NCBI GenBank assembly: GCA_025360125.1
Contig: JANYCU010000018.1
Span: 62,001 to 126,000, forward strand
DNA from: Armatimonadota bacterium
Lineage (GTDB): Bacteria > Armatimonadota > Fimbriimonadia > Fimbriimonadales > Fimbriimonadaceae
Reading direction: 5' to 3'
DNA length: 64,000 nucleotides
Part shown: one piece after another, positions 29,382 through 40,449 of the stretch
Layout: each line of letters opens with the position of its first letter
Position numbering within the stretch: the stretch's first letter is position 1
Translations under genes and position numbers: made by a program
The notes under the pieces: generated by a model
The model's database searches: none
The model's input: the letters and a program-made list of their open reading frames with translations, nothing else
Told to the model about the DNA's origin: nothing

Positions 29382-29945
29382 ATGAAACGAAGGGGAATCA
29401 CACTCATCGAGGTCTTAGTGGTAATTGCAATAATTGCCCTTGTTTCCGCAGTTGTCTATCCCACAATTGCCAAAGCGAAAATGGCGTCCAAGGCAACTGC
29501 AGTCAAACTGAACCTGAAAGGAATGTGGATGGGTCTCCAGATGTATCGCCAGGAAAACGACGAGCGGGTGGAATACGGTCCGATTGATCAAATGGGTCTT
29601 CCGATTCCGCCAGGAGGAATTACTCGCTTCTGGCAAGATTACAATCACGATGAACACTTCACTTGGGATAGGCACAGGGATTTAGTGCCGTGCGGAGTCA
29701 CCGTAGGCAACGAAACCATGCGCGGAATCTTCTATATGGGAAATGTCGTCGGCTTTTGGGATGAGGAGGTAGAGAAATACAAAGACAAGATGGTCATTCT
29801 GTTCGACAAAAACTGCAATTCAAGCGATGTCAAGGTCGATTGTCAGTATTGCGATAAGCGATCTATCGGCGTAACGCTTGGTGGTCAGATTTTGGACAAA
29901 CGAAATTCGGAGAAGCTCGTTTTCAATCAAGAATTCTATCGATGA
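29382..29945 (+). CDS. type II secretion/type IV pseudopilin-like protein
   Basis: The 187-residue protein has the prepilin leader MKRRG followed by ITLIEVLVVIAIIALVSAVV: a peptidase cleavage site before a hydrophobic helix, with the conserved glutamate at +5. After the helix comes a globular domain rich in charged and aromatic residues, with four cysteines in the second half (two in CQYCDKRS). It lacks the H-x9-DG C-terminus of the gene at 57.8 kb. It is close to the next gene (12-base gap). Confidence 0.85.
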   Translation: MKRRGITLIEVLVVIAIIALVSAVVYPTIAKAKMASKATAVKLNLKGMWMGLQMYRQENDERVEYGPIDQMGLPIPPGGITRFWQDYNHDEHFTWDRHRDLVPCGVTVGNETMRGIFYMGNVVGFWDEEVEKYKDKMVILFDKNCNSSDVKVDCQYCDKRSIGVTLGGQILDKRNSEKLVFNQEFYR

Positions 29946-29957
29946 CGGTGATGGACC

Positions 29958-30650
29958 ATGGATGCCAAAAAGGAACAACGATTTCGTCAGAAGAAAGTAA
30001 GGATTTCCATCGCCCTTGGCGTTACAGCACTATTGTATGCCGTCATCTGGTTTCTAAACCTTGACTCGATCGACAAGCGATCCCGCATCGTTGGTGATGC
30101 CGTCCTGAACAATCGGGTCGACTATCTTTGGTCCATGATCCGACAAAGCGAACGGGAAGAATCTCAACTCACCGAAGCAAACTGCAAGAAGTTTTGGCAG
30201 ACTCTCGTGGTTCCCCAGTATCGAAATTTTACTGCGTACCACTTGGAAATGCGGGGCGTGGACTCTCGAGATGTATTGGTCACGGGGCCAAGCCGTTACA
30301 AGGTGGCTTCCTACACGGTGGTTAAGTCCGGGGATGAATACTACATTCCTGATCTTGTGAGTCACACTTGCACTTTTCTCGCCGGATACGAGCGGCCGAC
30401 TCCGACTGCGCAAGATTTGAAGAAGGGCGCGGGAGAAAGAGTCATAATGATATTGGATGCGGAAATTGCGTGGCTCCAAAAGAACCGTGACAAATTGGAA
30501 GCATGTGGTTTGCCTGGTTTAAAAACTGCCAAAGATAAACCCTACCGATCGATCGATGAATTAGTCATGGCCTATCAAGCCGAGATTGATAGTATTTTGG
30601 CGGAGAAAGCTTCTGCAACTTCAACCCAAACACAATTTCCTTCACGTTAA
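29958..30650 (+). CDS. membrane-anchored hypothetical protein
   Basis: The 230-residue protein has a basic N-terminus (KKEQRFRQKKVR), one transmembrane helix (about 17-36) and an extracytoplasmic mixed domain. I recognise no family. It starts 12 bases after the pseudopilin stop and is probably in the same operon, so it may be a partner of that pilin-like protein. Confidence 0.6.
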   Translation: MDAKKEQRFRQKKVRISIALGVTALLYAVIWFLNLDSIDKRSRIVGDAVLNNRVDYLWSMIRQSEREESQLTEANCKKFWQTLVVPQYRNFTAYHLEMRGVDSRDVLVTGPSRYKVASYTVVKSGDEYYIPDLVSHTCTFLAGYERPTPTAQDLKKGAGERVIMILDAEIAWLQKNRDKLEACGLPGLKTAKDKPYRSIDELVMAYQAEIDSILAEKASATSTQTQFPSR

Positions 30651-35668: not shown

Positions 35669-36178
35669 CTACGCATTCGGTCGGTAAATTTCGACCTGAT
35701 GGAATCCAGGGAATTCCCATCGCGACGTCACGTTTAGATCCGTTCCTGGCATCCAGAAGTGGATGGCAAACGCATCGTTTGGTCCATCGCCCGTTTGGTT
35801 TTGCTTTCGACGATCGATTCCATACCACTCCACATAAACATCTCTGCTGGTATTCGTCGTGGCGTCGCGCAACTGCCCTTTTCCGCGAAAGAGGAGAGCG
35901 CCATTGGCGTCGGACATTTGGGCCACGCTACGAACGTTGAGCACCATATTGTCGTTGGATGTCCCGAGATGGAAACCCATTTCTAGGTAGCCGTTGGATT
36001 GGACCGCACCTTCGGCGTTCTTCCAAACTTCGAAGAGGGTTGCGATCCGAGGATCCCTTAATCGCTCCGTGTTTGGTAACTTCGCCCGCAATCCAAAAAG
36101 AAATGGATCGGTCTGAGCGTGAGCGAGGGTCGAAAGAGCAAGCGTTAAAGCACTGATAGCCAGGAATTTGAATTTCAT
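35669..36178 (-). CDS. secreted hypothetical protein
   Basis: The 169-residue protein starts at ATG 36178, after GGGTGA. The signal peptide is MKFKFLAISALTLALSTLAHA, with cleavage after AHA. The mature 148 residues are rich in beta-strand-like segments and N/D turns. I do not recognise a family. It lies between repeat copy A and the AT-rich island, and is transcribed alone with its own terminator. Confidence 0.65.
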   Translation of the reverse strand: MKFKFLAISALTLALSTLAHAQTDPFLFGLRAKLPNTERLRDPRIATLFEVWKNAEGAVQSNGYLEMGFHLGTSNDNMVLNVRSVAQMSDANGALLFRGKGQLRDATTNTSRDVYVEWYGIDRRKQNQTGDGPNDAFAIHFWMPGTDLNVTSRWEFPGFHQVEIYRPNA

Positions 36179-36261: not shown

Positions 36262-36307
36262 GCTAATACGCATTTATAGGACTTTAGTCCTATAAATGCG
36301 TATTAGC
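36262..36307. repeat. 46-bp perfect palindrome
   Basis: Two 22-base arms (GCTAATACGCATTTATAGGA + CT and its exact complement) are separated only by TT. A perfect inverted repeat this long is far beyond a normal terminator stem. The sequence is AT-rich and no long T run follows. It lies at the left edge of the AT-rich island, in the 477-base gene-poor space between two divergent units. Confidence 0.9.
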
Positions 36308-36547: not shown

Positions 36548-36576
36548 TTGAAAATTTACCGTAACTGTGTTACAAT
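36548..36576 (+). promoter_or_regulatory. sigma-70-type promoter of the cysteine-rich peptide operon
   Basis: TTGAAA (36548-36553) and TACAAT (36571-36576) are separated by exactly 17 bases, in an AT-rich context. The start site would be near 36583, giving a leader of about 70 bases before the ATG at 36656. Confidence 0.75.
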
Positions 36577-36655
36577 CGAGTGGACGGTCTACTTTGATCG
36601 TGCCGGAAGCCAATAAGCCCAGAATAAAGGCTTGAAGCAAGGGGGAAATAATAAA

Positions 36656-36922
36656 ATGAAAAACAAATTTTTGCGGATGACTGCAATATGCTCGTGTTTA
36701 ACCTTCTTAGCAAGCGTAGTACTTGCAACGACCGTTCCGAATTGGCCCGTATGCGCTGATAATGCAGCATGTGGTGCAAAGCACTCGCTAAGCCAGTGTG
36801 AGGATTGTTGCTTAACAGCTTGCACAACCGCAGGAGATCAACTGGCTTGTAATGCATGTTGCTCTAGGCAATGGGATCCAGTGAGGCAAAACTGCACGTT
36901 CTTGGCCGGGCGCCTACCTTAA
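36656..36922 (+). CDS. secreted cysteine-rich peptide (10 cysteines)
   Basis: The 88-residue protein starts at ATG 36656, with GGGGG about ten bases upstream. The signal peptide covers about residues 1-26 (hydrophobic SCLTFLASVVLA). The mature part has ten cysteines at 33, 39, 48, 51, 52, 56, 65, 68, 69 and 80. These include two C-x2-CC units (QCEDCC and ACNACC) that look like an internal duplication. An even number of cysteines fits five disulfides or a metal cluster. I recognise no family. It opens an operon that also encodes a thioredoxin-fold protein with CPPC, a plausible folding helper. Base composition is AT-rich compared with the rest of the window. Confidence 0.75.
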   Translation: MKNKFLRMTAICSCLTFLASVVLATTVPNWPVCADNAACGAKHSLSQCEDCCLTACTTAGDQLACNACCSRQWDPVRQNCTFLAGRLP

Positions 36923-36935
36923 TCTAAGATTGGCG

Positions 36936-37451
36936 ATGAATCGAATAGGAAAGATTTCGATAGGGTTATTAGCGTGTTCGGCTAGCGGCTTAATCGGTTG
37001 GTATGCTTTTAGGCCCAAGGAAGAGCACACTGATGATCAAATTTATGCAAAGATGTCACACCTCATAGGGGTCGACGAAAATTTTTGGAAGCAAGTTGGA
37101 AAAGTGCTAACAAAGGCGACTGCATCAAAAAATCCAAATCTTTCCTCAGATGATTACTATTTGCTATACAAAGCTCTGGAAACTGGAAGCCCTGGAGCTC
37201 AGAAGCCCGCAATGATGGCGTTGGGAAGATGTCCGCCAAAGAATAGGGAGGAGTGCTTTCAAAAAGTAGAAGCCGTGGCTCTGAATTCAAAGGATGCTGA
37301 CGCCCAAAGCTGGGCCTACGGCCTGCTTTGGACTCTTGACCCAAGCCGTCACGCAACAATTCGCCAGGAGGCAGCGACAAGTACATTTCCTGAAGTGGCC
37401 GAAGAAGTCAAAGATTGGCCAGAGGTATTTCCGAAAAAAAACTACAAATGA
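36936..37451 (+). CDS. membrane-anchored helical (HEAT-like) hypothetical protein
   Basis: The 171-residue protein starts at ATG 36936; a TTG two codons earlier is possible. A single N-terminal membrane helix (about residues 6-23) is followed by an all-helical domain. Short helix pairs such as AQKPAMMALGR and DAQSWAYGLLWTL recall HEAT repeats. It has two cysteines (in RCPPKNREEC). It begins 13 bases after the cysteine-rich gene and ends in an ATGA overlap with the pseudopilin gene, so it is part of the same operon. The function is unknown. Confidence 0.6.
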   Translation: MNRIGKISIGLLACSASGLIGWYAFRPKEEHTDDQIYAKMSHLIGVDENFWKQVGKVLTKATASKNPNLSSDDYYLLYKALETGSPGAQKPAMMALGRCPPKNREECFQKVEAVALNSKDADAQSWAYGLLWTLDPSRHATIRQEAATSTFPEVAEEVKDWPEVFPKKNYK

Positions 37452-38047
37452 AAACAGCTTTTACACTGATAGAGCTATTGATTGTGATTGCTATCATGGG
37501 AATATTATCTGCCTTGCTTTTCCCAGTATTTACTTCCGCAAAGAGGTCAGCATTTAAAGCATCTTCTACATCGGCGCTTAGGCAGTCTTTTGTTTCGTCA
37601 AATTTATATTCAAGCGACTATGAAGACCGTATTCCTTATGCGGTTGACGAGTGCGATTGGCGAGGGCTTTGTACTTCCTCATATTCTGATGAATGGCGGA
37701 ACATGATTCAAGACAACAATATTCCATCATTTACGATTGCCTTGAAGCCATATGGTTTTGTTCCAAGTTTATTTAAGATCGAGGTTGGTTCTGGGCCAAG
37801 AGATTTTGAGTCAATGGGAAGCAATTTCTACTATGACCTTAAGTTGTCATCGTCACCCTTGCAGAGATATGAAGAAAATGCTTGCCCGTATTTTACTGAG
37901 AGGAAGAGCTACTTTTGGAATGGCGGAATTGAGGGTACAGTTCAAGCAGACTATCGATGGCTTACCTTAAGATTTGGAGGTCAAATTCAATTTGCAAATT
38001 ACCATGATGCTTTTACCAAGGCGGATGAATGCAAGGCACTAAATTGA
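37448..38047 (+). CDS. pseudopilin-like protein of the cysteine-rich operon
   Basis: The 199-residue protein starts at ATG 37448, overlapping the previous stop by 4 bases. The prepilin signature is complete: short basic leader MKTA, then FTLIELLIVIAIMGILSALL with Glu at +5, then FPVFTSAKRSAF. The rest is a globular domain with cysteine pairs (CDWRGLC, NACPYF). It would be processed by a prepilin peptidase and assembled in, or held by, the inner membrane. It has no H-x9-DG ending. It overlaps the next gene by 19 bases. Confidence 0.85.
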   Translation: MKTAFTLIELLIVIAIMGILSALLFPVFTSAKRSAFKASSTSALRQSFVSSNLYSSDYEDRIPYAVDECDWRGLCTSSYSDEWRNMIQDNNIPSFTIALKPYGFVPSLFKIEVGSGPRDFESMGSNFYYDLKLSSSPLQRYEENACPYFTERKSYFWNGGIEGTVQADYRWLTLRFGGQIQFANYHDAFTKADECKALN

Positions 38048-38721
38048 GGTTCCCTGGACAGAAGTCAGATGTGTCAGATGCGCACTTGAAGGACGGTCAA
38101 TACAGGCGAATTGAGATAACCGTGATCGTAATTGGCTTAATGGGGATTGCTATGATTCCGGTTGTTCGAGCGAGGACACATTCGATGGATACTGGGGAGC
38201 CAGTCCGATTACCTGTAACGCAATTTCAAAGACTGCTACTGAGCTCGAGATTTATAATTGGCGACGAAAATGCAGCCTTCAATGTGGTGGAATTTTTTGA
38301 TTACGAATGTCCTCCCTGTCGTCTTCTCGGCCCAAGAGTTATAGACATTGTAAATTCTTCGAAAGGGAAGGCATCTTTGGCAATCCAAAACTTTCCGTTG
38401 AATATGCATCCCCACGCGAGAGCGTTGGCCAAAATCGCTTCAGTGTTGGGTGGGAGTGAATTTGAGAAGTTTCATTCAGACGCATTAAAACTTACTGGCA
38501 CCGACTTGGATGTGCTTGAAGCTAAATGGGGCGAAAAACTGACCATTAGTAACAAATTCTGGAAGTTGGATGCAAATAAGAAGCTCGAAGAAGCAAATTT
38601 AGCCGCCTCACACGTTCAAGTAGATAGCACACCATCGCTATTCTTGATTGATCGCAGAAAAGGCATAGTTTATAAATGCTCTACTCTTGGTGCTTTGGAG
38701 AAAGCAATAAGTAAGGTGTAA
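38029..38721 (+). CDS. membrane-anchored thioredoxin-fold (DsbA/DsbG-like) protein with CPPC
   Basis: The 230-residue protein has a cytosolic N-terminus, one membrane helix (about 28-46) and an extracytoplasmic thioredoxin-fold domain. The active site is FFDYECPPCRLLGPR (CPPC at 94-97). QNFPLNMHPHARALAK, typical of the DsbA/DsbG helical insert family, follows. The cis-proline loop is VDSTPSLFLID (about 197-207). This is the DSBA-like/thioredoxin_4 pattern, as in bacterial periplasmic disulfide enzymes. In this operon it may oxidise or isomerise the cysteine-rich peptide and the pseudopilin. It overlaps the upstream gene by 19 bases. Confidence 0.82.
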   Translation: MQGTKLRFPGQKSDVSDAHLKDGQYRRIEITVIVIGLMGIAMIPVVRARTHSMDTGEPVRLPVTQFQRLLLSSRFIIGDENAAFNVVEFFDYECPPCRLLGPRVIDIVNSSKGKASLAIQNFPLNMHPHARALAKIASVLGGSEFEKFHSDALKLTGTDLDVLEAKWGEKLTISNKFWKLDANKKLEEANLAASHVQVDSTPSLFLIDRRKGIVYKCSTLGALEKAISKV

Positions 38722-38876
38722 TGGACCAAGAATTACTTGTTTTCTTTGCCGCCCTCATTCTATTTGACAGCCGAGTTGACCAATTCCGCTGGCAGGGAAA
38801 TAGAATGACTGTATATCATGCCCCGGTAAAAAAGAAGAGTTTTATAGGTAATTGCCTTGTAGCGGCCGATGTTTAA
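38721..38876 (+). CDS. 51-residue ORF, last gene of the cysteine-rich operon
   Basis: The ATG shares one base with the preceding stop (TAATG) and the frame runs to TAA at 38874-38876. The product starts MDQELLVFFAALILFDSRVD, with a short hydrophobic N-terminus and a basic second half with one cysteine. The coupling and the terminator three bases after it favour translation, but the sequence resembles nothing I know. It could be the remnant of a larger gene. Confidence 0.4.
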   Translation: MDQELLVFFAALILFDSRVDQFRWQGNRMTVYHAPVKKKSFIGNCLVAADV

Positions 38877-38878
38877 AG

Positions 38879-38931
38879 TGCGATGTCCGTAACTCTGGAT
38901 CAATCTCTCAAAAGTTACGGACCGCATTTTC
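38879..38931 (+). terminator. intrinsic terminator of the cysteine-rich operon
   Basis: TGCG-(AT bulge)-GTCCGTAACT pairs with AGTTACGGAC-CGCA (14 pairs) around an 18-base loop. The right arm is followed by TTTTCATTTT. It is only 2 bases after the last ORF and also faces the end of the convergent M28 peptidase gene. Confidence 0.85.
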
Positions 38932-38934
38932 ATT

Positions 38935-40449
38935 TTAGTTTGTACCGCCGCGCCCGCCAGCAGCGGTTTGAGGAACGTCGTGTGGCAACATCCCTTTGTA
39001 TTCGCCCAATTGGTGAATGGTTAAGTAGACCAGCTTCGCGGTGTTGGCAATTTTGTCGAAGTTTATTTTGTCGACTGTATCAGTTGGCTGGTGATAGTCA
39101 GGATGGAATCCCGTGAAGAAGAATGCGATAGGGATTCCCTTTCGAGCGAAGTTATAGTGGTCGCTTCGGGTGTAGACATCTTCCGCGTCGTATTTAAATT
39201 TCCATCCGATCGACTCGTTTTGGTCAAGAATAATCTTGTCGAGGGCGGTGGAGATTCGCTTTGATCCAACTAGTCGGATCGTATCGAGATTCTCGGACTC
39301 AATGTCGATTCGCTTTTGGTCGCCGTTCTGCGCGCCAACCGAGTTTCGACCGACCATATCCATTTGCAGCTCAGCAATCATTTTTGTAAGGTCGATTGGA
39401 GCGTTGTTGCTGAAGTAGCCCGAGCCGAGCAAGCCCATCTCCTCGCCGTAGAACGACATGAAAATGACCGTTCGCTTTGGCTTGACCGGGTTCGAAGTCA
39501 ACGCCTTAGCAACTTGCAAGAGCGCGGTTGAACCGGATCCATCGTCATCGGCACCGGGGTACCAAACGTCGCCGTTCTTGCCAAGGTGATCGAGGTGAGC
39601 GCCAACGCCAATGAATTCGTCCCTTAGAGTCGGATCGGAACCTTCGAGCTTCGCAACCACGTTGCCAACACGAGCCTTATCAATCATTTGCTTCGCGCCT
39701 GCAGTAACCGATGTTCCGAGCGGAATCATCGCAATTCCATCAACCGGAAGGGAAGCATCGAGCACTGAGCTGGATGCTGGAAAAAGCTTCTTAGCGGTTT
39801 CCATAGAAACCGACAATCGAGCCGTTGCGGTTGTTGCATCTGGCTTGGTGCGTCGACCTTGCCAACCCGGTGCCGAAACTTTGTCGACAATGCTGATAAC
39901 TGCGGTGGCTCCTGCAGTGGAGAAGGACCCCTCAAATCGTCGTCGTGTACTCTTGTTGAGCAGCAAAACTACTTTGCCTTTAACCTGAGCTTGCTGTTCG
40001 TCAGTCAACGCGGCTACGGTGCCATTGGCAACGACAAAAACCACGTCTCCGGTGACATTGAGGTCACCTGCCATGGAGACGCCTATCTCGTTCGTTCGAG
40101 CGGAATACTTGTCCGTCTTCACCATGAGCGAATTGACGTCAGTTCCTACTTTCCAAAAGTCAACAAGTTGGAAGTAGCTACCATCGGGCATGATCGGTTT
40201 AAGCCCGAATCGTTTGAAGTTATCGGCCATGTAGTCCATCGCCTTTTCAAAGCCGGGCTGACCTGTTCCTCGTCCTTCAAACGCTGGGCCAGCGAGAACG
40301 CCTAAGAATTTGCGACCGTCATTGGCCTTAATTGTATTGAATCCCTTTTGATAGTCTTTCGGGATTTCGCGCATGCCGGGGCCAAACTGGGCGCTGGCAA
40401 AAATGGCCGATCCCGCGAATAAAATAGAGATGGAAGATCGAAGCTTCAT
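38935..40449 (-). CDS. M28 family metallopeptidase with PA domain
   Basis: The 504-residue protein has a signal peptide (SISILFAGSAIFASA, about residues 6-20). A PA (protease-associated) insert lies around 130-270 and an M28 zinc-aminopeptidase core follows. The metal ligands are in VGAHLDHLGK, YPGADDDGSGSTALL and MSFYGEEMGLLGS. It probably trims peptides in the periplasm. The ATG is close to the divergent tyrS, 53 bases apart. Confidence 0.92.
   Translation of the reverse strand: MKLRSSISILFAGSAIFASAQFGPGMREIPKDYQKGFNTIKANDGRKFLGVLAGPAFEGRGTGQPGFEKAMDYMADNFKRFGLKPIMPDGSYFQLVDFWKVGTDVNSLMVKTDKYSARTNEIGVSMAGDLNVTGDVVFVVANGTVAALTDEQQAQVKGKVVLLLNKSTRRRFEGSFSTAGATAVISIVDKVSAPGWQGRRTKPDATTATARLSVSMETAKKLFPASSSVLDASLPVDGIAMIPLGTSVTAGAKQMIDKARVGNVVAKLEGSDPTLRDEFIGVGAHLDHLGKNGDVWYPGADDDGSGSTALLQVAKALTSNPVKPKRTVIFMSFYGEEMGLLGSGYFSNNAPIDLTKMIAELQMDMVGRNSVGAQNGDQKRIDIESENLDTIRLVGSKRISTALDKIILDQNESIGWKFKYDAEDVYTRSDHYNFARKGIPIAFFFTGFHPDYHQPTDTVDKINFDKIANTAKLVYLTIHQLGEYKGMLPHDVPQTAAGGRGGTN

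Follow-up and report, generated by a model that had tools for sequence, protein, structure and literature searches.

A recurrent gene cassette of Armatimonadota joining a cysteine-rich exported peptide to a HEAT-like partner, a pseudopilin and, often, a DsbA-like oxidoreductase

Background

Disulfide bacteriocins served by a thiol oxidoreductase, dedicated or from the host, include sublancin, with BdbA and BdbB, and, reportedly, EntV. HEAT-repeat immunity proteins (Imm-HEAT) have been described for polymorphic toxins (PMC3482391), and the CX3C...CX3C motif defines the alpha-hairpinins, which consist of two antiparallel helices joined by disulfides and include antimicrobial peptides (PMC7191063). 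In the phylum Armatimonadota, the lineage concerned here is described as very rich in pseudopilin genes, with 79 in Fimbriimonas ginsengisoli, and as having fimbriae with a presumed role in attachment (PMC4072686).

The locus described here lies in a stretch of 64,000 nt (hereafter the window) of an Armatimonadota genome of 4.13 Mb and brings together, in four genes named A to D, components of each of these kinds or resembling them. The literature searched on Armatimonadetes pseudopilins, H-X9-DG prepilins, Cys-rich peptides alongside pilins and bacteriocins alongside pseudopilins describes no such set, in line with the initial annotation, whose author knew of none. The combination A-B-C, with or without D, appears undescribed while its components are of known kinds; the families of A and B themselves also appear undescribed.

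Organisation of the locus

The features of the cassette and its two neighbours, given by their positions in the window, are the following.

35669-36178, minus strand: gene for a hypothetical exported protein, 5' neighbour of the cassette
36548-36576, plus strand: promoter of sigma-70 type, TTGAAA-N17-TACAAT, extended TG present (consensus scan)
36656-36922, plus strand: gene A, Sec signal peptide and ten-cysteine mature peptide (translation; 17-member alignment)
36936-37451, plus strand: gene B, N-terminal membrane anchor and HEAT/ARM-like helical solenoid (translation; AlphaFold2; PDB neighbours)
37448-38047, plus strand: gene C, pseudopilin with prepilin N-methylation motif (Pfam; TIGR02532; pilin N-terminal helix match in PDB)
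38029-38721, plus strand: gene D, membrane-anchored oxidoreductase of the DsbA/BdbD/ScsC class with CPPC and Thr-Pro (Thioredoxin_4; profile against structures)
38721-38876, plus strand: 51-codon ORF, judged outside the system (no relatives or cassette counterparts)
38875-38930, plus strand: intrinsic terminator, a hairpin followed by a T-rich stretch (folding energy -23.2 kcal/mol, z -5.79)
38935-40449, minus strand: peptidase gene, 3' neighbour of the cassette

The initial annotation had read this region as five joined genes enclosed by one consensus promoter and one strong terminator. Both signals are present, the promoter being of a kind for which matches in the consensus scan are not rare in shuffled sequences, and the cassettes named C16 and C30 in the same genome have TTGACA-type promoters directly 5' of A. 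Four of the genes, A to D, do overlap or sit closely spaced. The fifth, the 51-codon ORF, was rejected: a search of 31 genomes returned no relative of it, none of the other cassettes has an equivalent, and it is therefore probably not part of the system.

Recurrence of the cassette

The search covered 291 Armatimonadota genomes; a search with A returned a second copy in the same genome, a search with D returned more, and the neighbourhoods were then read. The A-B-C(-D) cassette, with its gene order kept, occurs at 19 divergent loci in 14 of these genomes, which belong to three families, and this recurrence is far above chance. Homologues that never co-occur had been named beforehand as an outcome that would refute the proposal of a single system; the homologues instead stay together. 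Three loci are in the genome studied here (the window, C16 and C30), three in G004 and two, in tandem, in G003; single cassettes are found in G020, G030, G064, G070, G094, G103, G107, G135, G147, G157 and G159.

Intact A and B are adjacent at 18 of the 19 loci, the exception being G103, where stops and frame changes disrupt B while A, C and D are open. C follows the pair at 17 of the 19 loci, with contig ends cutting G107 and G157; exceptions are a G004 locus (C12), where a pseudopilin lies ~2 kb downstream, and G070, which carries A-B alone. D adjoins at 11 loci and is absent at six, the remaining two ending at a contig edge. A-B is the most constant pair, present in G070 without C or D, and D the least constant part, which need not define the cassette. 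Borderline matches to A in G080, G022, G106, G156, G277, G049, G060, G152 and G216 lacked the context or an open frame and were rejected, and the neighbourhoods examined around relatives of D in other phyla contained no A-B-C.

G157 and G159 were recovered by a profile of B only and yet carry A and C as well, so that they provide an independent check. The A, B, C and D proteins diverge in a correlated manner: over 9-14 cassettes, Mantel tests on their pairwise distances give r of 0.41-0.87 and p of 0.0001 to 0.0056. Each of the three cassettes in the genome studied here is most closely related to one in a different genome (the window copy to that of G135, C16 to that of G064 and C30, by B and C, to the C24 copy of G004), so that the pattern is one of descent of the cassettes rather than of the species.

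Other gene sets of partly similar make-up were observed. At 29382-30650 of the window, an AT-rich pair encoding a four-cysteine pseudopilin (187 aa) and then a membrane-anchored protein of 230 aa resembles part of the cassette. Within the genus, a DsbA-like protein is encoded in operons at L042, L043, L046 and L047 together with a Cys-rich exported peptide of another kind, of about 120-130 aa; a pilin, a Wzy_C protein resembling O-antigen ligase or a fusion of MauE and thioredoxin is added. These are possibly a second class of peptide cassette. In G051 (L145, 1799-3433), a 238-aa protein with a Cys-rich C-terminus is followed by a clear HEAT_2 protein and then by a 57-aa Cys-rich ORF that has a CX3C...CX3C core and no signal peptide, a set that may be a relative of toxin-immunity type.

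The peptide and its candidate partner

Translation bears out the description of A as a signal-peptide-bearing peptide with ten cysteines: exactly ten follow the signal peptide, including two C-x2-CC units. The signal peptide looks cleavable and there is no pilin helix. None of 15 family members has a Pfam match. An alignment of 17 members shows no variation at C33, C56, C65 and C69, and 16 of them have C52. The CX3C...CX3C core (C52-x3-C56, C65-x3-C69) is found in 16 of the 17 peptides, against 3.6 expected from shuffled peptides; across the family the mature peptides have eight to twelve cysteines each. The structural model of A, of low confidence (pLDDT 58), places helices at 45-58 and 62-68.

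B had been described simply as a membrane-anchored helical protein. The anchor and the all-helical nature stand, the latter in a confident AlphaFold2 model (pLDDT 83); missing from that description were the HEAT-like character and the constant pairing with A. In this model B resembles a HEAT/ARM solenoid, with HEAT/ARM neighbours in the PDB at a Z of about 10, a value in the range common among helical repeats generally. The window B has no Pfam match, and the HEAT_2 matches of its relatives in G070 and G147 (E 7.7e-5 and 7.4e-4) fall short of the curated cut-off. B diverges more than C and D when identical pairs of cassettes are compared, the pairs being non-independent and the p-value only indicative; such divergence is as predicted for the binder of a variable partner.

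The pseudopilin, the oxidoreductase and the host machinery

Both remaining products were correctly recognised from the sequence, C as a pseudopilin and D as a CPPC protein of thioredoxin fold. C has the prepilin cleavage/methylation motif and hydrophobic helix of type IV pilins and pseudopilins, matching PF07963 above its cut-off (E 1.3e-5, 25.0 bits against 21.2) and TIGR02532 (E 3e-6), the latter found in eight of eight C members. Beyond the N-terminal motif it matches no curated pseudopilin family above cut-off. The Verru_Chthon cassette protein D family was considered and rejected, C scoring 19.5 bits against a cut-off of 70, through the N-terminal motif only. Several relatives of C end in an FYDGH-type segment, which we take to be that of H-X9-DG pseudopilins.

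D matches Thioredoxin_4 (E 4e-9, 37.3 bits against a cut-off of 23.2) and, as expected for DsbA-like proteins of this family, is exported and combines the thioredoxin fold with a CxxC motif, here CPPC, and a Thr-Pro loop; both cysteines and the TP are invariant among the D proteins. Its profile is nearest to ScsC-like and BdbD structures in the PDB, with metal-resistance proteins also among the nearest. DsbA-like genes occur in most relatives, and comparison of the D proteins of the cassettes did not establish a single clade, which leaves room for repeated recruitment of D.

Elsewhere in the genome, with no physical linkage to the cassette, are a prepilin peptidase gene with PilB-, PilT- and PilC-type genes beside it, five secretin matches and a gene for VKOR, whose frame of 392 residues is also hit by the thioredoxin protein query. 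All components needed by the route proposed below are therefore present. With D at 11 of the 19 loci and VKOR, pilus core and secretins encoded in the genome, a dedicated disulfide route is plausible from gene content.

Mobility and acquisition

The window cassette was said to be AT-richer than both sides, consistent with recent acquisition, and both points are supported. Its GC content is 0.43-0.45 against about 0.52 on either side, and each of the 14 cassettes measured has a lower GC than its flanks, the difference being 0.2 to 13 points. Judged by the peptidase (70%), G009 is the closest relative; there, homologues of the flanking genes lie about 140 bp apart with an empty site between them, and in G002 the peptidase gene directly adjoins GAPDH. 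It is these empty sites in close relatives, together with the low GC, that argue for acquisition. No target-site duplication was seen at the insertion, which has one homologous edge only. A 46-bp near-perfect palindrome upstream of the cassette (36262-36307) was considered as a mobile end, but is unique in the genome and no obvious candidate. A phage or plasmid origin was likewise set aside, A having no match in phage or plasmid records and D none in viral contigs, and PADLOC gave no match to a defence system.

The cassettes are patchily distributed and multi-copy. In the C30 copy a perfect (GAAAG)14.8 tract (L035, 3947-4020) lies directly upstream of a TTGACA-N17-TAAAAT promoter. A repeat tract just upstream of a promoter is the layout typical of phase-variable promoters, which makes this copy a candidate for phase-variable expression.

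Proposed function and alternatives

We tentatively propose that the locus is a mobile cassette, present in several copies, for the production and handling of a single disulfide-rich exported peptide, with antagonism, B serving as immunity, as the likeliest end use, a reading drawn from sequence that we put at somewhat short of even. The interactions among the four products, the direction in which A is exported and its use in antagonism are inferred. A would cross the inner membrane by Sec, and its cysteines, among them the CX3C...CX3C pairs that would belong to a helical hairpin, would be oxidised by the membrane-tethered D, or by a host oxidoreductase at loci devoid of D; the VKOR encoded elsewhere in the genome would re-oxidise D. 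C, processed by the host prepilin peptidase, would act as a minor pseudopilin specific to the cassette, entering a filament of type IV (pilus or type II-like) and coupling A to the filament machine. B, with its inner-membrane anchor and predicted periplasmic, HEAT-like solenoid, would be the cognate binder that holds or neutralises A. The end use, for which we favour antagonism towards competing bacteria, B being the immunity protein, is the weakest step of this scheme. Antagonism is favoured because the A-B pair is constant, because HEAT-repeat immunity proteins are known, and because the cassettes are mobile and occur patchily and in several copies. Points against the reading are that the mature A peptides are mostly neutral or acidic, unlike membrane-lysing antimicrobial peptides; that a search with the window-type B profile found no clear case of a stand-alone B, although toxin systems commonly have orphan immunity genes; and that the broken B of G103 fits poorly with a strictly needed immunity protein. 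The low confidence of the peptide model, the six loci that have no D and the doubtful single origin of the D proteins also count against the scheme.

The main rival to antagonism, which we consider unlikely but well worth weighing, is that the oxidised A is a small cap or subunit on a type IV filament, displayed via C for attachment and assembled with B as an inner-membrane chaperone, the divergence of the cassettes mirroring differing surfaces. The pseudopilin adjoining A-B at most loci (17 of 19) would be accounted for, as would the phase-variation-like repeat 5' of one copy, in a lineage rich in pseudopilins and with fimbriae already assigned a presumed role in attachment (PMC4072686). A filament subunit accords less well with the cleavable-looking signal peptide of A and its want of a pilin helix, or with the A-B pair of G070 that has no pseudopilin at all; moreover, the high base rate of pseudopilins in the phylum makes the presence of C less informative than that of B.

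It is improbable that A is a folded, pheromone-like signal with B as its periplasmic receptor or escort and C and D as aids to export and folding. The small size and export of A, its constant pairing with a B that diverges along with it, and the patchy, multi-copy distribution could be so explained, but the cassettes examined include no sensor kinase, regulator or receptor with cytoplasmic output. Less credible still is a device against metal or redox stress, in which the cysteines of A would bind copper or another metal and D would act as a ScsC-like isomerase or reductase: A is indeed very cysteine-rich, and ScsC and metal-resistance proteins are among the solved structures nearest to D, but BdbD and other oxidases rank equally in that search, there is no linked gene for a metal transporter or metal regulator, and CX3C pairs are typical of disulfide helical hairpins. 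That unrelated exported genes, one of the phylum's many pseudopilins and a DsbA of the generic sort carried by most relatives came to lie together by chance is hardly tenable, and is refuted for A-B-C, given that three families share the gene order over 19 divergent loci, that the genes diverge in a correlated way, and that the A and B profiles recover each other's loci.

Lineages of the phylum can carry dozens of pseudopilins to which no role is assigned, and the cassette gives such genes a testable purpose by tying a specific pseudopilin to one small peptide, one candidate binder and one oxidase. With A comes a new family of bacterial peptides stabilised by cysteines, for which B is the candidate cognate binder. 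Should the antagonistic reading hold, the cassette would be a filament-coupled peptide weapon of a sort absent from the searched literature; that it constitutes a new class of weapon, a disulfide-locked hairpin peptide with its own oxidase, delivery by pseudopilin and filament, HEAT-like immunity and a mobile cassette, we regard as rather doubtful.

Comparison with known systems

With the disulfide bacteriocins the cassette has in common a small exported peptide needing disulfides and an oxidoreductase that is co-encoded or supplied by the host. It differs in lying outside Firmicutes, in the Sec-type signal peptide and ten cysteines of A, in having a pseudopilin rather than a peptide transporter, and in its additional HEAT-like, membrane-anchored partner. 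Polymorphic toxin-immunity pairs with Imm-HEAT (PMC3482391) offer a possible second parallel, that of a candidate toxin beside a HEAT-repeat partner, patchy and divergent, and a HEAT-like B, the candidate immunity-type partner, stands beside A at 18 of the 19 loci. Unlike the C-terminal toxin domains of large secreted proteins, however, A is a stand-alone small peptide, and B is predicted at the periplasmic side of the inner membrane.

A and the alpha-hairpinins have in common the motif Xn-C-X3-C-Xn-C-X3-C-Xn, found in 16 of the 17 A peptides, and a predicted helix-loop-helix, which in A comes from a structure of low confidence. Alpha-hairpinins have only four cysteines (disulfides C1-C4 and C2-C3) whereas A, a bacterial peptide, has six more (eight to twelve in total across the family). 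Because of these further cysteines, and because no sequence homology was detected, the likeness is one of resemblance and not of membership. In a cluster from Bacteroidota (L097, 203-3124), a Cys-rich exported peptide of 47 aa is encoded together with proteins resembling MauE, a propeller and Thioredoxin_4; this cluster is alike in layout only, as a secreted Cys-rich peptide with a thiol oxidoreductase, and has neither pseudopilin nor HEAT-like partner. Finally, C shares the prepilin N-terminal motif with the minor pseudopilins of type II secretion systems and type IV pili; in contrast to these systems the cassette encodes no ATPase, platform or secretin of its own, but its host has PilB, PilC, PilD and secretins.
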